A stretch of 22,666 nucleotides of DNA, taken from the IMG/VR virus record IMGVR_UViG_3300031162_000250, positions 1 to 22,666 of that record. One strand, given 5' to 3'. Source of the DNA: a virus. The number at the start of each line of letters is the position of its first letter. Within the stretch, counting starts at the first letter, position 1. The position numbers and the translations under genes were made by a program. Shown piece after piece: positions 3,213 through 15,478 of the stretch. The notes beneath the pieces were generated by a model. It was not told the origin of the DNA, did no database searches, and saw only the letters and a program-made list of their open reading frames with translations.

Positions 3213-3965
3213 TTAGCCGACATTGGCGAACGCTGCGTCAACCATCGAGGTCTTAGAAGCAGGCTTCTCAGAACCTCCATAGCGGACAGTATCGTTGCCG
3301 CCGTCAGGCATCAGGTAGTTGTCCAAAATCTTCTGAACCTCGTCGGGAGACTTGCGCTCAAAGATTTTGTAAATATCAATCTCGTGACTCATCCACTCAG
3401 TGGCTTGAGCATCGTCGTCACACAAAGCGCTCGGACGAGGACGAGGTTGAAGGTTGTCAAAGACAACTCGGTCACCCTTGCCGAAGTTCTTGCCAATGTA
3501 AGTGACCTTCAAATCGAAACCCTTCTTGGGGTCAGTCACATCGCCATAGTCTTCATCAAGGATGGTCTCAATGATAGACCTGTAAGCAGTCTTTGGGAAA
3601 GACCACAGAACAGGACCACGCTCCTCCTGACCGCGAATAATCGCTGGAGCGTAGTAACGCTGAGTCACAAACAACTTCTTTGCTTGATCCTGACTGTCAG
3701 GCGTTCCCTCACGGTAAAGTGAAGTCGCGAACTCACAGATAGGACAACTGTCATTGAAGTTGCGCTTTGGACACAACACACCGCCCTTTTCCACATTATA
3801 GTGAAAATGAAGTTCCTTTACGGGATCTCCATCCCCTGCGGGAAGGATACGAATCTGGTGTGTCCCAATCTCTGGCTTCCAGAACGTATCGTTGTTCTTT
3901 CCTCCAGAGCGCTTGCCATCAAGGGCGTCAAGTTTTGCTTTATACTTACTAAAATCAATTGCCAT
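3213..3965 (-). CDS. Single-stranded DNA-binding protein, T4 gp32-like
   Basis: A 250-residue protein beginning MAIDFSKYKAKLDAL, with a basic N-terminal segment like the cooperativity region of gp32. The OB-fold core includes a zinc-binding cluster: H53 or H55, then C65, C74 and C77 (LHFHYNVEKGGVLC, then SCPIC), close to the His-Cys-Cys-Cys arrangement of T4 gp32. The motif VTQRYYAPAIIRG follows at about 99-111. The C-terminus is less acidic than that of T4 gp32. The family coats single-stranded DNA in replication and recombination and contacts polymerase, helicase and UvsX. The start is fixed by AAGGAGAAG. A near-consensus promoter ends about 30 bases upstream, and a strong terminator follows the stop, so this gene probably has its own abundant short transcript. 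Confidence 0.85.
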   Translation of the reverse strand: MAIDFSKYKAKLDALDGKRSGGKNNDTFWKPEIGTHQIRILPAGDGDPVKELHFHYNVEKGGVLCPKRNFNDSCPICEFATSLYREGTPDSQDQAKKLFVTQRYYAPAIIRGQEERGPVLWSFPKTAYRSIIETILDEDYGDVTDPKKGFDLKVTYIGKNFGKGDRVVFDNLQPRPRPSALCDDDAQATEWMSHEIDIYKIFERKSPDEVQKILDNYLMPDGGNDTVRYGGSEKPASKTSMVDAAFANVG

Positions 3966-3995
3966 TTTACTTCTCCTTTACTGTTGATTTGCTTT

Positions 3996-4024
3996 ATAAT
4001 ACTATTGATTTTGTTCTTTGTCAA
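3996..4024 (-). promoter_or_regulatory. Sigma70-type promoter for the SSB gene
   Basis: Minus strand: TTGACA (4019-4024), a 17-base spacer, then TATTAT (3996-4001), one mismatch to TATAAT. The start point would be near 3989, giving a leader of about 24 bases carrying the AAGGAG site of the SSB gene. The -35 box lies in the last codons of the upstream 285-residue gene and the -10 box directly follows its stop codon. With the terminator at 3178-3197 it would delimit a single-gene transcript. Confidence 0.75.
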
Positions 4025-4859
4025 TAGTTTCTTCTAACATTTTATTTTGCACGGCTGTGGTTGAGCTTTTCACATAAACGATTTCTTGCTCAAAGGGAAC
4101 ACCGCACACTTTGATGGAAGTTGACACTTCCTGTTCCCTGTAATGCTTAAAGTTTGACATAATCTCGTCGTGGAGATTTGTGTCCTCATTTAGTCTTTTT
4201 TCTGGTATTCCTAAAAGCACCTCCTTTTCGCGTGTGAATAATAGATTACCAAGGTTTGTGGTTGTTGTCAAGGAAAAATCACAATAAGAAAGTGTAGAAA
4301 TAACCGCGTTTTTAATTTTTTCTTCTCTGATTTCAAACACAGGGTCGAGAGAAGAAAGCCAAAGGTGTGTCTGCCAGTGTTGAGCGCAGCAGTGAATGAC
4401 TGCTTCGTTCATTTTACCAAGCGTCACAGTGCCAGAAATCTTTTTTACTTCGGCTAAATCAAAAACCGTAAACTCCTTGAAAGTATGTGAACGAGTCTTC
4501 TCTTGCAAAACACCGTGAACCAAGTTGTGTAACATTATACCAGTTTTGCTGAGAGTGTCAAGGTCTGGCTGCAAATAAACAATGTCTACGTTTTTATTTT
4601 TGATGTGCTTTAGAACTTGCAGTGAAACAAGTGAAACGTGTTCTCCACCTGACACAACATAAGTTATGTCATCAGCTACTGTGGACAAATATTTCTTTAG
4701 ACCCCTCAAAGTCTCTTCGTATCTCTCCAACTCTGTGTAGATCGGGACTTTGAACTCAGCCGAGGTGTGGTTGAGGGTGTAAAAAGAAAAATCTGGGTAT
4801 TTTTCCAGATAATTTGTAAAATAAACTGCTGTTTCTCCTACTGCGACAATACTTCTCAT
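4002..4859 (-). CDS. Unknown protein, 285 residues; possible degenerate tubulin/FtsZ-like fold
   Basis: I do not recognise this protein with confidence. The ATG at 4859 overlaps the polymerase stop (ATGA) and has AAGGAG five bases upstream, so it is preferred to the in-frame ATG at 4883. The N-terminus (IVAVGETAVYFTNYLEK, then FSFYTLN) reads as a first strand, glycine turn, helix and second strand. Residues 64-97 (DITYVVSGGEHVSLVSLQVL, then VDIVYL) form another strand, glycine-rich turn and helix, where FtsZ and tubulin carry GGGTGSG. A strand near 130-133 and a long helix around 150-160 follow. The order recalls the GTPase half of FtsZ, but the nucleotide-binding glycine motif is not intact, so GTP binding is doubtful. 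Placement between polymerase and SSB suggests a replication-linked role. A perfect-consensus promoter lies inside the gene. Confidence 0.6.
   Translation of the reverse strand: MRSIVAVGETAVYFTNYLEKYPDFSFYTLNHTSAEFKVPIYTELERYEETLRGLKKYLSTVADDITYVVSGGEHVSLVSLQVLKHIKNKNVDIVYLQPDLDTLSKTGIMLHNLVHGVLQEKTRSHTFKEFTVFDLAEVKKISGTVTLGKMNEAVIHCCAQHWQTHLWLSSLDPVFEIREEKIKNAVISTLSYCDFSLTTTTNLGNLLFTREKEVLLGIPEKRLNEDTNLHDEIMSNFKHYREQEVSTSIKVCGVPFEQEIVYVKSSTTAVQNKMLEETIDKEQNQ
4534..4561 (-). promoter_or_regulatory. Consensus sigma70 promoter inside the 285-residue gene
   Basis: Minus strand: TTGACA (4556-4561), a 16-base spacer ending in TGG, then TATAAT (4534-4539). Both hexamers match the bacterial consensus exactly and the TGn before the -10 box makes it an extended -10 promoter. 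It points towards the SSB gene, with a start point near 4527. The sequence also encodes protein (DTLSKTGIM), so part of the match is constrained by coding. It could give a second, longer transcript for the SSB gene or a shortened form of the host gene, for example from the in-frame ATG at 4412, which has only a weak ribosome binding site. Confidence 0.7.
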
Positions 4860-6040
4860 AAAATCTCCTTCATCGCTCCCCAATTTGTTCCGAGACTCAT
4901 GTGAAGACCAAATTTGTATCCGTCAAAATTAGAAATAACGGACATAATGTCTTCAATTTTGGATCTCTCCGTTTTATCGAAGTCTAGAACAACGCTATCG
5001 TGAACCACAAATGAAATACGGGACTTCATACCCCACTCTTTCATTTTGTTTGACAGTCTGGCGATGTTGAACAGGAAAATATCGTTGAATGTGCTTTGCA
5101 CAAGATAGTTTAGTGCTTTTTCCTCCCCCACTTCTATCTTTCTACCCAACGGGTTAGTAATCTTGCCGTTAGAGTAATACCGCTCAAGAATTTCCTGTCT
5201 ACTAAATAGTTTCTCCAAAGATTCGTTCGACTTTCTTGGATCGTACAACCAAGAAAAGAATCTTTTTTTGCTTTCGTCTCTCGTTAGTTTACCACCGAAT
5301 GCTTTTTTGTTAATCCACTCGTGAAGGTCGCCTTCGGGAATGGGTTGGTCGGTTAGATAAAAGAGAGTTGCAACTTCAGCCGACACAACATCGAACTCAA
5401 GAAAAACTGATTTATAAGGCTCTATAACGCCGCGTATTTTTTTAGGCAGTGTCAGTATAGGAAAACTATTTTGGCGCGTTGTCAGGCGACCAGTGCGCGT
5501 TCCGAACTGGTTGTATTTGATGTATGGGTTGTCCCGTAATCTGTTGAAAAGATCGCGTCCAGAAGTTGTTGCTATTTGAAGACGAATGTTGGAAGCGTTG
5601 AGCTTTAGGGGCTGAAGGCTTATTTCTTTTAGAACTTGCTCTGTCCTAATAGTCGTGTCATAGTTCTCGGGTTTTGGATAGTTCCGTAGAACGTGTTCTG
5701 TGATGCGGTTCTTTAGTTCTGCGTGTTGCTTGAGAAACCTGTGGGGGACTAACTCATAAAAACAAAAATCATCGATGGTTAGACCAACGTGGTAGAAAGA
5801 TTTGAGCATTGCTTTCAGCCGGTTGGTTGACGCATCCCAATCTTCTTTTAGTTCCTCTGGACAAACTTGTTCAATGGTTTTGCCGCCAGCCCAGAGTTCT
5901 GCGAACTTGACTTTCTCTGGCAAATATGTATGATAGTTCCAAGTCCCAGAGCCTTCCTCTGGAATCTGGTCAAAATGAAGTGCGCCTTGGAAATAAGACG
6001 CGACACAGGTTTCTTTGTCGTCTAGCGTTTGAAAAATCAT
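4856..6040 (-). CDS. Family A DNA polymerase, short form without a nuclease domain
   Basis: A 394-residue protein with the family A polymerase motifs in order: TRTGRLTT at 181-188; motif A in FLEFDVVSAE with catalytic D217 and E222; the O-helix R254, K258, F262, Y266 (RDESKKRFFSWLY), matching the R-K-F-Y spacing of E. coli Pol I; NYLVQSTFND at 311-320; and motif C, VVHDS, with catalytic D348. The usual glutamate after that aspartate (HDE) is serine 349, and the glycine after the O-helix tyrosine is aspartate. T7 polymerase is about 700 residues; here no proofreading exonuclease motifs precede the polymerase part, only a short unassigned N-terminal region. It overlaps the next gene by four bases. 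The ATG at 6040 has no ribosome binding site; see the promoter at 6047-6075. It lies in the same frame as the upstream gene, 12 bases after that gene's TAG. Confidence 0.85.
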   Translation of the reverse strand: MIFQTLDDKETCVASYFQGALHFDQIPEEGSGTWNYHTYLPEKVKFAELWAGGKTIEQVCPEELKEDWDASTNRLKAMLKSFYHVGLTIDDFCFYELVPHRFLKQHAELKNRITEHVLRNYPKPENYDTTIRTEQVLKEISLQPLKLNASNIRLQIATTSGRDLFNRLRDNPYIKYNQFGTRTGRLTTRQNSFPILTLPKKIRGVIEPYKSVFLEFDVVSAEVATLFYLTDQPIPEGDLHEWINKKAFGGKLTRDESKKRFFSWLYDPRKSNESLEKLFSRQEILERYYSNGKITNPLGRKIEVGEEKALNYLVQSTFNDIFLFNIARLSNKMKEWGMKSRISFVVHDSVVLDFDKTERSKIEDIMSVISNFDGYKFGLHMSLGTNWGAMKEIL

Positions 6041-10993: not shown

Positions 10994-13516
10994 TTAACCC
11001 ATTGCTTTTTGCACACCTTTTATAATTCTGGAGTCTAGAACTTGCCCATCAAGGGTTAGGTTAACTATGAGATCACCGACAGGGGCGCTCGGCGCTGCTG
11101 CGCCAGCGGTAGTAGAGCCTCCACTCACTGAAGCTTTAACCAGCATCGTCATTTCTTTTAGCTTGGGGAGTTCAGTGTCGTTTATGGCTTTAACTGTTTC
11201 CGTTAAGTTGGTTGCAAATCTTGCGAATCCAGCCATACCAGAAATCGATACATTCATCGCGGAATTAATTATTGATTTAAAGCTTTTGGCAAAAACTTTG
11301 GACTTCTCCATGATTGTGTTAATTATATTGCCAACTTTTTCAAGAGCCACCGACATTACGTTGGTAATTGCATTGCCAACTTTTTCGATAACCAAGCCAA
11401 TTCCGCTGAATATAGCCCCAATTGGGTTAAACGCTATACCTATTGCTTTTATTATTTGTATAATTTCTTTTGAATATTTTGCCATATTTGTAAATGAATC
11501 AACTAATTTTGAAATCGCATAAACGAGAAAGCCAAGTGGGGCTATTATACCAAATGCCGCTGCACCAACAGCAAGAATAATCGGTATTGCAGGCGCAGCA
11601 GCAGTACCGGCAGCGCCCAGAGCAGTGCCAAAAGTAACAATTGCGGGGCTTACAATAACCAAAGCTTGTGCCAAACCACTAGCAAGCGATGTTAAAAGAC
11701 TACCTACAAGACCGCCGATAGCCCTTCCTATGTTCGTAGCCACTGTCACTGCCGTTTGTGACATACTTTTGAGAGCGTCACCAAATCTGGGAGCAGCAGT
11801 TTGTGCTGATGAGGCAATGCTCTCCGCTCCTTTACCCACTGATGAGGCAAGGGTCTCTACTCCTTTGCCCACGCCTTCGGCACCTTTTCCAACGGCAGTG
11901 CTGACGGTTTCTGCGGCAGCTTTACCAACGTTCTTAAATTTTAGAAATGTGTTAATTGCGCTAGCGGCAAAAAGCCCAATCATCAAACTGCCATTGGGCA
12001 ACATATCTAAAAATTTTCCGAAGGTTTCATCGAGCTTGGTCAGCGCATTGGTGACTCCCAGCGATGATGCTTGTAAATCTTTCATCATTTTTTGTTGAGC
12101 AGTCATTAACTCTCGGGTTTTCTTTTCTTGTTCGGTAAGGGCAGCGGTATTATCTTTTGTAGTATCGGTGGCTTTAACGTTCACCTGGTTTCCCATACCC
12201 ATTATTTCGTTTATTGTTAAATTGCCGGGAATACTGTCTTCTAACAATCTGATTTGATGTTGGCTTAAATTATTTAAACCACCCTGAGCTTGAATTGCTC
12301 TGCGAATTGTTTCAATCCTCTCAGACTCAGACATATTCATCATATCTACAGAACTTATGTTTGTTCCTAATACAAGATTTAATTGTTGTGTTGCTCTTGC
12401 AGCATCCTCAAATGTTGTGAAGCCCTCGCTGATTGAAAGTAATTTTTCAATTGAAACGCCAGTTGATGCAGAAATAGCTTTTAATTTTGCAAACTCTTTT
12501 ACAGCGGCAGGACCGACTTTTTTAATTCTTGAACCAAACTGTGCAAATTGTTTTGCGGCTTTGCCCACAGGCTCGCCCAAATCTTTAGATATCTTAACCA
12601 AGTCGCCTAAGCGTTCCATAGCCTGCTCTGAAGACATTCCCTGTTGTATCATTGCTTCATTTAGGATTGCTGCTTGATCAGAAGTAGAAATGCCAGCTTT
12701 GCCCAACAAAGCTATTTGATTTCTTAGTTCTGGTCCAATCTTTTGAGCGAGAATTCCTGAAGTATTGCCCAAATCATTTGCAACATCAGCCAAGTCCTGC
12801 ATTGAGCCACCGGCACGAATAAATTCAGCCGAAGCGCCTGCGGTTGCAGCACGGGCTTGGTCTGTGGTAAGACCCATCGCTCCCATCGCCTGCTGGGCTG
12901 TGTGAATGCTGCCCTTGAGTTCCATAGCGTTGTTTGCCGCAATAGCAAAAGCGTTGCCTAAGTCAAACTTTTTAGCAAAACCTTTTGCAGCGGTGGTGGC
13001 AGCTTCCTTAAGGGATTCAGAAAACTTCTTACCGTTTTCCTTAGATTTAAGCAAAAGGCTTTCAATTTCACGGAAACCTTTTGCGATTGGATCAGTTTCC
13101 GCTGCCATAATGCCAAACTGTTGGGCAATATTGGTAGCGGAATCTTCCATAGTCTTAGAAAGATTTGCTATTTCTTTTTGTAAGGCAAGTATCTTTTCCT
13201 GTTTGGCAGCTTTTTGGTCAAGGAGTTTTATTGATTCTGCCAGCTTATTAAGCTCTTCTTGAAGTTCTTCAACAAGGTCGCCTTGGACCTCTTTTTCTTC
13301 TTCTAAGACAGCTAATGTTTCCGCGTATTGTTTAGCCAATAAACGCTGTTCTTTTTCAATGAAGCTTAAACGAATTTGTGCTTCTGCCGCAGACTTTTCT
13401 TGTGCAGTCTTAAACTGACCTAAAACTGCATTCCTGCTCTCAAGCAAAGCTAATTCTTGTTGGAGAGCAGCGTTTATTTGTTGCTGCGTTTGTAATTCTT
13501 CTTTTTTTGTAGCCAT
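10994..13516 (-). CDS. Tail tape measure protein
   Basis: An 840-residue protein with the usual tape-measure layout: a long coiled coil over about residues 5-130 (repeated Leu/Glu/Lys/Gln), an Ala/Gly-rich helical middle (160-480), a Gly/Ala/Ser repeat region (542-570), a very hydrophobic stretch (about 600-675, for example AAPAIPIILAVGAAAFGIIAPL) that could insert in the host membrane, and a second helical region. Tape measure proteins set tail length, roughly 1.5 angstrom per residue, so about 120 nm would be expected if the whole protein is extended. It lies between the tail assembly genes and baseplate genes as expected. The start at 13516 follows the preceding stop by ten bases and has only a weak ribosome binding site. 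Confidence 0.88.
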   Translation of the reverse strand: MATKKEELQTQQQINAALQQELALLESRNAVLGQFKTAQEKSAAEAQIRLSFIEKEQRLLAKQYAETLAVLEEEKEVQGDLVEELQEELNKLAESIKLLDQKAAKQEKILALQKEIANLSKTMEDSATNIAQQFGIMAAETDPIAKGFREIESLLLKSKENGKKFSESLKEAATTAAKGFAKKFDLGNAFAIAANNAMELKGSIHTAQQAMGAMGLTTDQARAATAGASAEFIRAGGSMQDLADVANDLGNTSGILAQKIGPELRNQIALLGKAGISTSDQAAILNEAMIQQGMSSEQAMERLGDLVKISKDLGEPVGKAAKQFAQFGSRIKKVGPAAVKEFAKLKAISASTGVSIEKLLSISEGFTTFEDAARATQQLNLVLGTNISSVDMMNMSESERIETIRRAIQAQGGLNNLSQHQIRLLEDSIPGNLTINEIMGMGNQVNVKATDTTKDNTAALTEQEKKTRELMTAQQKMMKDLQASSLGVTNALTKLDETFGKFLDMLPNGSLMIGLFAASAINTFLKFKNVGKAAAETVSTAVGKGAEGVGKGVETLASSVGKGAESIASSAQTAAPRFGDALKSMSQTAVTVATNIGRAIGGLVGSLLTSLASGLAQALVIVSPAIVTFGTALGAAGTAAAPAIPIILAVGAAAFGIIAPLGFLVYAISKLVDSFTNMAKYSKEIIQIIKAIGIAFNPIGAIFSGIGLVIEKVGNAITNVMSVALEKVGNIINTIMEKSKVFAKSFKSIINSAMNVSISGMAGFARFATNLTETVKAINDTELPKLKEMTMLVKASVSGGSTTAGAAAPSAPVGDLIVNLTLDGQVLDSRIIKGVQKAMG
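11808..11873. repeat. Two tandem 33-bp repeats in the tape measure gene
   Basis: Units 11808-11840 and 11841-11873 are both 33 bases, start GATGAGGCAA and match at 27 of 33 positions. They encode the repeated ESIASS/ETLASS and GKGAE/GKGVE segments of the tape measure protein (residues about 549-570), and a partial further unit (GKGAE again) lies alongside. An 11-residue period agrees with alpha-helical duplication, a common way for tape measures to change length. Confidence 0.8.
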
Positions 13517-13526
13517 ATCTTAAAAA

Positions 13527-13841
13527 TTATTTAATAGGATATTTGATACCCGTAGCTCTTTCAAAGTTTCTAATCGCCTGATTTAGACCAATCTTGCTTT
13601 TATATGTTTTTGGATCGGTTAAACCATAAGTTATTGCAGCATCCATATAAGCACGTTCTCCTTGAAGAGCGCCCATAAATGCGCCAATCTGAGAAGGAAG
13701 TCCGCGAATCTTAATATTGGAGCCACCTATCGATGCAAAGCCCATCTGAGCCAACATATATTTAATTTGTGCGCCGAAAGCGCTCATCCAAGATTCGTCT
13801 ATTCTTTTTTCATTTAAATTGATAACAAAAGGCTCTTTCAT
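13527..13841 (-). CDS. Small tail-region protein of unknown function, 104 residues
   Basis: I do not recognise a family. The protein is mixed, slightly basic at the C-terminus (RNFERATGIKYPIK), with a central GLPSQIGAFMGALQGERAYMDAA helix-like segment and no signal peptide or membrane span. The start is well supported by a doubled Shine-Dalgarno sequence, TAGGAGTAGGAG, eight to nine bases before the ATG at 13841. It sits between the frameshifted assembly chaperone and the tape measure, where small tail assembly factors are common, but that is only positional evidence. The next gene starts ten bases after its stop. Confidence 0.75.
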   Translation of the reverse strand: MKEPFVINLNEKRIDESWMSAFGAQIKYMLAQMGFASIGGSNIKIRGLPSQIGAFMGALQGERAYMDAAITYGLTDPKTYKSKIGLNQAIRNFERATGIKYPIK

Positions 13842-13911: not shown

Positions 13912-14094
13912 TTATCTGCCAGAGGATTTCTTCATTGCCTTGTTTCTTTGTTCGATTTCTTTTTGTAGTCTTTCAAACAAATATTGTCTGAGAGCAATTG
14001 GAAAATTGTAAGCCTCTGTAAAGCTTATACCAGCGTAGTAAACGAGGTAAAAAATAACCTCGTATACCTGCTTGCCATATTCATCACTTAGACC
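13912..14094 (-). CDS. Start-less 60-codon ORF: frameshift extension of the tail assembly chaperone
   Basis: This ORF (GLSDEYGKQVYEVIFYLVYY at its start, ending MKKSSGR) runs from the T-run at 14095-14101 to TAA at 13912-13914. Between the preceding in-frame TAA (which overlaps the chaperone's MPLTAD codons) and the conserved-looking part there is no ATG, GTG or TTG, so it cannot start on its own. Joining it to the chaperone at the T7 run in the +1 (or -2) register gives a protein of about 338 residues. The content, an aromatic helix followed by 'AYNFPIALRQYLFERL', resembles the small second ORFs that follow tail chaperone genes in many phages (the G/GT arrangement of lambda). Alternative: a one-base homopolymer error, since six Ts would make a single continuous gene. 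Confidence 0.7.
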   Translation of the reverse strand, partial: GLSDEYGKQVYEVIFYLVYYAGISFTEAYNFPIALRQYLFERLQKEIEQRNKAMKKSSGR

Positions 14095-14929
14095 AAAAAA
14101 AGTCTGCCGTTAGCGGCATTGTCACCTCCTGTGTGTGACCACACTCTGAACAGGGGTGTTCAAAATTGATATCCACATCTGGGGTGACCTTTTCGTATGC
14201 ACTTCTAAGGTATCTACAATCTCTAACGGGAATTTTTGTTAAACATTGTTTAATGAGCGAACGGTCCTCTACATCATTAATACTTACAACCATAAGCTCC
14301 ATTGTATAAAGCATTTGTTCTAGCTCTACTTTATACTTCTTTCTTTTCTTCATGGTTTCTTCGATGCTCTTTTCGTCGTGACCATTCAAAATTTTAAACT
14401 CGACCACTAGGTTGGTGGCTGGTAGTGTTATTTTGTAAGTATTTCTTTCTGTCTCGACAACATCTTCAAAATCCAACTCTTTAAATTTGAATTCTCTTAA
14501 ATCAAGTTGTTTTTCTTCTGCTGTGCCACAGGCAGTGCAGGAAACATTTACGCCATAATGCGGTCCTAAACCGGAAATTCTTGTTGCAAATAAAACAGCG
14601 TTCTTATCTCCTATTAGCAAATCCTCTAGCTTTATGCTCTTGTCCACCAAAACACTTCTTAAAAGTTTGTCAATTGCTACGCCCTGTTTTAAATAACTTT
14701 CGTTAATTAAAATATCCTCTTCCTTTGCGGTCATAACTTTTATTTCAATGGTATCAACCCCGTGCAAAGGATGACCCTCTGGGTAGTGTTTACCACCAGA
14801 GGGAAGTTCTACAAATTCTGTTGGGGTTGGAAAGTTTAGTATGCTGTTAGCGGGGGGTGGTGTAGCCGCTCGGGACTGAACTGAAGGTTCTAAGGACGAA
14901 CCCAGTTTTTCTTCATTTCTTGCACTCAT
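14084..14929 (-). CDS. Tail/baseplate assembly chaperone with split zinc ribbon (gp26-like)
   Basis: A 281-residue protein. After a disordered N-terminus (1-30) comes the segment PTEFVELPSGGKHYPEGHPL, then MTAKEEDILINESYLKQG (66-83), a pattern I associate with T4-type baseplate hub assembly chaperones (gp26, T4_baseplate family). Two CxxC pairs, C131/C134 and C260/C263, would bind one zinc across the fold. Position after the tail tube and before the tape measure is where contractile and siphovirus phages keep the tail chaperone. The zero-frame product stops seven codons after a run of seven Ts. A start-less ORF continues in another frame, so some ribosomes may make a C-terminally extended form. 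The ATG at 14929 has GAGGT close upstream. Confidence 0.72.
   Translation of the reverse strand: MSARNEEKLGSSLEPSVQSRAATPPPANSILNFPTPTEFVELPSGGKHYPEGHPLHGVDTIEIKVMTAKEEDILINESYLKQGVAIDKLLRSVLVDKSIKLEDLLIGDKNAVLFATRISGLGPHYGVNVSCTACGTAEEKQLDLREFKFKELDFEDVVETERNTYKITLPATNLVVEFKILNGHDEKSIEETMKKRKKYKVELEQMLYTMELMVVSINDVEDRSLIKQCLTKIPVRDCRYLRSAYEKVTPDVDINFEHPCSECGHTQEVTMPLTADFFWSK
14095..14101 (-). other. Candidate ribosomal frameshift site (seven T run)
   Basis: Minus strand: GAC TTT TTT TGG TCT AAG TGA in the chaperone frame. The downstream ORF needs GGT CTA AGT GAT, which is reached if one T is skipped (+1) or if the ribosome slips back two bases on the T-run (-2). The zero-frame stop is only five codons after the run starts. 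The overlap in which both frames are open runs from just before the T-run to the TGA, and the T-run is the only slippery element in it. Confidence 0.6.
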
Positions 14930-14936
14930 TATACCT

Positions 14937-14967
14937 CTTATTTATTTGTTTTTGTGCTTATTTATTT
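14937..14967. repeat. Direct repeat CTTATTTATTT, two copies 20 bases apart
   Basis: The 11-mer CTTATTTATTT occurs at 14937-14947 and 14957-14967, across the gap between the tube gene and the chaperone gene; on the minus strand it reads AAATAAATAAG. The second copy also forms a short inverted repeat (GCTTA/TAAGC, 14956-14971) over the tube stop codon. It may be regulatory or simply AT-rich spacer. Confidence 0.6.
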
Positions 14968-15478
14968 AAGCGCCTGTTGGTGTATACGCTGCCCAATCAT
15001 ACTGAATTGAGACAGTCACCTCAATGAGACCCTCATCTGAGTAGCCGTGTTGTCCAAAGTCAACACTTGTTAAGAAGGCGTTTGTAAGAGTCCACTTGCC
15101 AATTTCAGTGCCAGCAGTATCCATTTGACTAATAACAACTGAACCGAGTTGTGTTGACAGTGTATTCTTAGAAAAAGTTGCCTTGCCTATTTGTGCTGTT
15201 TTTGGTTCTTGGACGCCAGTGGCTTTTAACAAGTCTACCAACTTTTTTGCCACAGAACTGTTACCAACCACATCATAAATAGTAAACTCTACTGGTGTCC
15301 AAGTAACCTTACCGGGGTAGTAAAACTTGTATTGTGTGTAATCAGCCTCCAGCGTCCCTATCTCCATTGAAGGCAGCTTTGCTGACTTGATAAGAAAAGG
15401 TTCTGCGATATTTTTCATAGTCACCGTGTATTGATAACTTTTCTTAGGCTCTAACTGTGCGGAATTCCAAAATGCCAT
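14966..15478 (-). CDS. Tail tube protein, gp19-like
   Basis: A 170-residue protein, close to the 163 residues of T4 gp19, the subunit that polymerises into the inner tail tube beneath the contractile sheath. The sequence is a beta-rich tube fold: SYQYTVTMKN near the N-terminus, then FLIKSAKLPSMEIG (28-41), YYPGKVTWTPVEFTIYD (53-69) and, at the end, the strand 'LIEVTVSIQYDWAAY'. The 'K/R-x-P' turn after the first strands and the 'W-T-P-V-E-F-T-I-Y-D' strand are typical of the family. It follows the tail sheath by 16 bases, the standard sheath-tube gene pair. The start has AAAAGGAGA upstream. Confidence 0.88.
   Translation of the reverse strand: MAFWNSAQLEPKKSYQYTVTMKNIAEPFLIKSAKLPSMEIGTLEADYTQYKFYYPGKVTWTPVEFTIYDVVGNSSVAKKLVDLLKATGVQEPKTAQIGKATFSKNTLSTQLGSVVISQMDTAGTEIGKWTLTNAFLTSVDFGQHGYSDEGLIEVTVSIQYDWAAYTPTGA

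Follow-up and report, generated by a model that had tools for sequence, protein, structure and literature searches.

A putative +1 frameshift linking two reading frames of a tail assembly chaperone gene in T4-related phages

Analysis of a viral DNA stretch of 22,666 nucleotides (the window) points with high probability to two ORFs at 13912-14929 being one gene for a T4-type tail assembly chaperone (TAC), which would yield a short and a long form via +1 frameshifting. This reading, drawn from comparison of sequences, is carried by the conservation of the two-frame layout in relatives, by selection on both frames and by the natural variants of the site where the frames meet. The initial annotation had proposed a programmed shift of such a chaperone at a run of seven Ts, in agreement with the layout that we now find conserved.

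Two reading frames between the tail tube and tape measure genes

The pair lies between a tail tube (gp19-like) gene upstream (14966-15478, minus strand; phrog_4542 tail tube, E 3e-18) and the tape measure gene downstream (10994-13516, minus strand), the latter assigned from phrog_58 (E 8e-4) together with size and position. The initial annotation placed the chaperone gene before the tape measure gene, which holds for the position, with the amendment that a separate gene of 104 residues (13527-13841) is found in between. This intervening gene has no match in Pfam or PHROG; among the 81 first-set sequences, window included, 46 possess it.

The first ORF, a gp26-like gene representing the short TAC form (0 frame, 281 residues, 14084-14929, minus strand), ends GAC TTT TTT TGG TCT AAG TGA. 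The slippery run T7 occupies 14095-14101 within TTT TTT TGG TCT, as judged from the sequence and its relatives, and the TGA stop (14084-14086) is found three codons past the last slippery Phe codon. ORF2 (60 residues, 13912-14094, minus strand), the putative C-terminal (T-like) domain of the long form, opens GGT CTA AGT directly after the T-run, in the +1 register (equivalently -2). Both the gene end and the coordinates of the 60-codon ORF given initially were confirmed. A stop located 15 nt upstream of the junction closes the frame of ORF2, and the interval from this stop to the ORF contains no ATG, GTG or TTG. Inside the ORF the earliest potential starts are codon 38 (TTG) and codon 53 (ATG), both beyond the point from which the conserved domain could be made; the original statement that the second ORF lacks a start is hence correct for the upstream interval and not for the ORF itself. 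The -1 frame at the site shuts after two codons in the window and in nearly all relatives, and no second ORF occupies the register of a canonical X XXY YYZ heptamer. At another gene end of the window (18363) a startless +1 stretch of 53 codons also runs into the next gene, so that the layout of one genome says little and the weight lies on its conservation in relatives.

The gp26-like protein matches PF12322 (T4_baseplate) at 52 bits, against a curated cut-off of 24.5 (E 9.5e-14), as well as phrog_150 (baseplate hub, E 1.1e-16), and it displays CxxC...CxxC cysteines resembling those of a zinc ribbon. The gp26-like part and ORF2 were folded separately, and the AlphaFold model of the former reached a mean pLDDT of 87. 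No significant match was detected between this model and solved TAC structures, the HK97 chaperone 2ob9 scoring E 3.7 and TM 0.18/0.38, and searches of solved structures by sequence and by fold returned nothing significant.

We then turned to the relatives, for which two sets were assembled: 80 IMG/VR loci whose gp26-like proteins share 37-57% identity with that of the window, and 97 further relatives retrieved with genes of Flavobacterium phage immuto and LR756508. The +1 layout is present in all 80 loci of the first set, four of them cut by the contig end. In these, 53-90 codons of open +1 frame follow the junction where the contig permits, and the 0-frame stop follows 3-7 codons beyond the second Phe codon. 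In the second set the layout recurs in 94 of 97, the remainder being one locus cut by the contig end and two with a separately started second ORF. Isolated phages behave similarly, with a +1 ORF at TTT TTT TGG CCT in Microcystis phage Mel-JY01, at TTT CTT TGG CCT in immuto, at GCC/ACC/CCC CGA in Bacillus SP-15, Listeria LIS04 and Streptococcus GXN1, and at TTT CGC in Streptomyces phage BRock; the exact slip codon in SP-15, LIS04, GXN1 and BRock is our reading. The layout also recurs in seven MAG contigs, mainly from Flavobacteriales bins. The homologue alignment suggested in the initial annotation thus reveals a conserved two-frame layout and slip site, and no fused single-frame version of both parts was found among the relatives examined. 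Taken together, the comparison indicates that the two-ORF layout is neither chance nor a sequencing error.

The putative slip site and alternative explanations

A slip-site tally was made over 182 loci (113 nonredundant at 85%). In 180 of these the junction consists of a UUU codon with U or C as the next base, a sequence on which Phe-tRNA is predicted to re-pair one base forward. The stretch TTTTTTTGGCCT ends 71 of the 81 first-set sequences, window included. Over the whole tally TTTTTTTGG is present in 119 loci, among them one before T rather than CCT-type codons, three before TCT, and a single TTTTTTTTC locus tallied apart in the output; T7-GG is found in the window and in 114 + 4 of the 182. 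The rest comprise TTTCTTTGG (40 loci), TTCTTTTGG (15), TTTCTATGG (4) and a few others, with the variants TTC TTT TGG in 15 loci and TTT CTA TGG in four, while TTT CTT TGG also occurs. Constraint at the nucleotide level is pronounced: among nonredundant genes, TTC replaces TTT at the two Phe codons in 1 of 71 and 0 of 67 cases, as compared to 25% TTC elsewhere in the same genes. With each gene's own usage, and kinship ignored, the chance of all-TTT at one position is about 1e-10. The wobble base T3 of the first Phe codon is constrained too, which slippage confined to the second Phe codon does not account for; it would be explained if either Phe codon could serve for the slip, or if two tRNAs slipped in tandem.

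From these observations we infer the ribosomal shift itself, its +1 direction, its efficiency and a function in assembly. Most ribosomes would stay in the 0 frame and stop, releasing the short gp26-like form of 281 residues. A minority would slip one base forward before decoding of UGG, with Phe-tRNA on UUU beside U or C, which at T7 means from UUU onto the overlapping +1 UUU. Shifted ribosomes would read on as ...TADFF-GLSDEY..., generating a long form of about 338 residues. In a role modeled on that of lambda G/GT, the two forms would associate with the tape measure protein and bring in subunits of the tail tube.

Upstream of the slip site lies an internal Shine-Dalgarno (SD)-like motif, AGGAGGTGA (14122-14130, minus strand), which on the basis of anti-SD pairing in relatives is a candidate frameshift stimulator. 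Of 69 nonredundant genes, 65 have a GGAGGTG-like motif here, placed in one of two registers (about -28 or -34 relative to the last T). Its mean anti-SD energy is -11.0 kcal/mol, against -4.8 kcal/mol for randomly chosen segments of these genes, and the GAG, CCG and GAC codons of this region are synonymously constrained. The distance from the motif to the P-site codon is 18 or about 24 nt, and does not fit the SD spacing of dnaX, about 10 nt. RNAalifold on 31 sequences returned no pair of a conserved RNA structure around the slip site. In the window the motif is followed by an in-frame ATG, AGGAGGTGACAATG, which could initiate a peptide of 11 residues or, if a shift ensued, a free-standing second domain. 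A more specific proposal is that a large clade of T4-related phages uses a UUU-Y slip before UGG together with a conserved internal SD-like motif at an unprecedented distance (18 or about 24 nt), and that one homologous chaperone family has switched among +1, -1 and gene duplication while yielding the same two products; we put this forward tentatively, as somewhat less than an even bet.

The initial annotation left the choice between +1 and -2 undecided. A -2 shift as in Mu, with the P-site tRNA moving back two bases on TTT TTT T and an extra Phe, leads to the same register. Its re-pairing would demand the T3 constraint seen, and a long-spaced upstream SD would, if active, pull the ribosome backwards. 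Such re-pairing is possible on T7. However, in TTC TTT TGG (clade L199-L213) it puts Phe-tRNA on UCU with a mismatch at the middle base, on TTT CTA TGG it is poor, and in the Firmicutes relatives with CCC/GCC/ACC CGA it is impossible. Thus, the natural variants TTC TTT TGG, TTT CTA TGG and CC-CGA favor +1 over -2, and we regard the latter as unlikely. The CC-CGA site rests on three phages, since almost no additional relatives of the SP-15-, GXN1- and LIS04-type genes were recovered from the collections searched; the same holds for the XacN1 type discussed below.

Production of two separate proteins, with ORF2 translated from an upstream or near-cognate start aided by the internal SD-like motif, is more doubtful still. 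The sequence AGGAGGTGACAATG in the window is congruent with this explanation, as are the cyanophage -1 junctions, which have an in-frame ATG and are annotated as separate gp51 genes, and two loci of our tally with an ATG of their own (L208 and L214). Yet the internal ATG after the motif is in the 0 frame, and in the window, as in many relatives, a stop 9-15 nt ahead of the junction closes the +1 frame, with no start codon in between. Where start codons are present their positions are inconsistent, and separate synthesis leaves the nucleotide-level conservation of TTT TTT T unexplained. In L208 (about 2190-2300) and L214 (about 2170-2290) the second domain is an ATG-started ORF shielded by a stop, and these are the two loci without UUU-Y, their degenerate slip sites reading TTC TTG TAT and TTC CTT TGG CCA, respectively. 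The slip site is thus lost precisely where an own ATG is present, an apparent loss of frameshifting. Homologues with an own start, named initially as evidence that would speak against a shift, are accordingly confined to these 2 of 182 loci.

Transcriptional slippage, with RNA polymerase making some transcripts one base shorter (or two longer) at T7 and a mixed mRNA pool encoding both proteins, we consider highly improbable. T7 is the sole coding-strand run of at least seven Ts in the window and is kept in most relatives. Nevertheless, seven Ts is short for slippage of this kind, and homologues with TTTCTTT, TTCTTTT or TTTCTAT maintain the same two-frame layout with runs of four Ts at most. 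Finally, a homopolymer error in sequencing or assembly with one continuous ORF as the true gene, an alternative raised in the initial annotation and conceivable for a seven-base run in a metagenome contig, is of negligible probability: the same register recurs in roughly 180 loci independent of one another and in the complete genomes of several isolated phages, Mel-JY01 and immuto included, the layout also exists at sites free of a homopolymer, and the lack of any examined relative with both parts in one frame excludes it.

The second domain and its counterparts in other phages

Returning to the +1 frameshift, we assessed ORF2 as a protein-coding domain. Its family has the consensus GLxxEYxxxVYExxFxLKYxGGWSFxEAYNLPxxLRxWFxxRL. 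The median dN/dS over 324 pairs is 0.12, demonstrating that ORF2 is under purifying selection, and the +1 frame has a codon-position signature (information 1.13, 1.49 and 0.56 bits). The predicted model consists of three helices (mean pLDDT 93). Profile comparison matched the ORF2 family along its length to the -1-frame 'gp51' domain of cyanophages (probability 82, E 1e-6), which in turn matches the C-terminus of T4 gp51 (probability 90, E 2e-7). A direct match of ORF2 to T4 gp51 was not significant with either 16 or 160 sequences, and a pattern scan with the short ORF2 alignment suffered from insufficient conservation. Foldseek with the ORF2 model ranked P-HM1 Gp51 second (TM 0.75/0.84, probability 0.99), but with E 0.16. 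In the simplest reading of these profiles, ORF2 would be the counterpart of the cyanophage 'gp51' domain and, only through this domain, of the C-terminal extension found in T4 gp51.

Mu was originally cited as a known -2 case; the closest precedent is rather the T4-type gp26/gp51 pair. T4 gp26 and gp51 both belong to PF12322, as does the gp26-like protein. T4 has two PF12322 genes, whereas the other genomes searched have one scored match, barring Mel-JY01 and immuto, in which a divergent gp26 is under threshold, and one record with one gene in pieces. The window shares with T4 the PF12322 family, short and long forms, the extra C-terminal domain (via the cyanophage domain) and the neighborhood of tail genes, and differs in having one gene with a +1-frame extension instead of two separate genes. 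According to a summary in PMC10885494, Vladimirov, Gautam and Davidson (2022) identified the T4 chaperones, a short and a long one encoded by distinct genes, and PMC12846349 credits their study with polyT -1 signals in the chaperone genes of T4-like phages.

In P-SSM2, S-PM2, HTVC008M and KVP40 the only gp26 gene has the canonical heptamer U UUU UUC/U at its end, after which a domain continues in the -1 frame, an arrangement also present in 80 of 80 P-SSM2-like IMG/VR loci (cyanophage, pelagiphage and KVP40 loci being L097, L098, L100, L101 and L219-L298). An in-frame ATG just after the junction is usual in cyanophage-type loci, and HTVC008M has none. The domain is annotated as a small separate gp51 in three records inspected; that the cyanophage gp51 represents the C-terminal part only was noted by Sullivan 2010 (PMC3037559). 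These phages resemble the window in having one PF12322 gene and then a homologous domain in another frame. They differ by a -1 heptamer, usually with an ATG, where the window has a +1 register, UUU-Y in place of the heptamer and no ATG. The simplest reading would be one chaperone family whose long form arises by +1 here, by -1 in cyanophages and KVP40, and from a second gene in T4. The gp26-like gene is also extended in the -1 frame, from GC TTT TTT ATT (U UUU UUA), in Xanthomonas phage XacN1 (L088, about 3780-4000) and Stenotrophomonas phage RAS14 (L092, about 3790-4020), which probably make the long form by a -1 shift, a reading that, with few further relatives, rests on these two phages.

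Frameshifting of TAC genes in general is already well known, and its conservation in long-tailed phages was reportedly described by Xu in 2004. Lambda G/GT, too, consists of two overlapping ORFs ahead of the tape measure gene, but uses -1 where the window gene would use +1. A review describes the conservation in long-tailed phages, with T4 as the exception, and includes -1, -2 and +1 cases (PMC5009743). The TAC pair of HSTV-2 and HF1-like haloviruses is in the +1 register (PMC5009743, PMC7230728), with TTT-CGC (UUU-CGn) as the site proposed for the HF1-like viruses (PMC7230728), which is UUU-Y as in BRock. Unlike the window phage these are archaeal viruses and have no T7-GG-CCT motif, the likeness being one of register and motif. 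UUU_U and CUU_U serve in +1 frameshifting of RF2 (PMC5009743), and RF2 (prfB) is similar in its forward slip by one base at P-site CUU_U/UUU_U with an internal SD upstream. It deviates in having a stop codon and an SD 3 nt away, as opposed to the sense codon UGG and an SD-like motif at 18 or about 24 nt. In the part of the literature searched, where Vladimirov 2022 was represented by later summaries, no report of a +1 version in the PF12322 chaperone family was found.

If our reading holds, the T4-related clade fills the gap left by the T4 exception, using a forward shift. One protein pair made via +1, -1 or duplication would then be a natural experiment on the gain, reversal and loss of decoding signals, the own-ATG loci with decayed slip sites (L208 and L214) exemplifying such loss. 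The TTT CTT, TTC TTT, TTT CTA and CC CGA variants would further lend themselves to testing +1 slippage at sense codons in bacteria, and a frequent small ORF of marine phages, at present misannotated or unannotated, would receive an assignment.

The phage has a T4-type capsid (Gp23). Elsewhere in the window, an ORF of 394 residues (4856-6040) resembles the C-terminal part of a family A DNA polymerase (PF00476, E 6e-11), and is possibly a split or shortened polymerase of this family.
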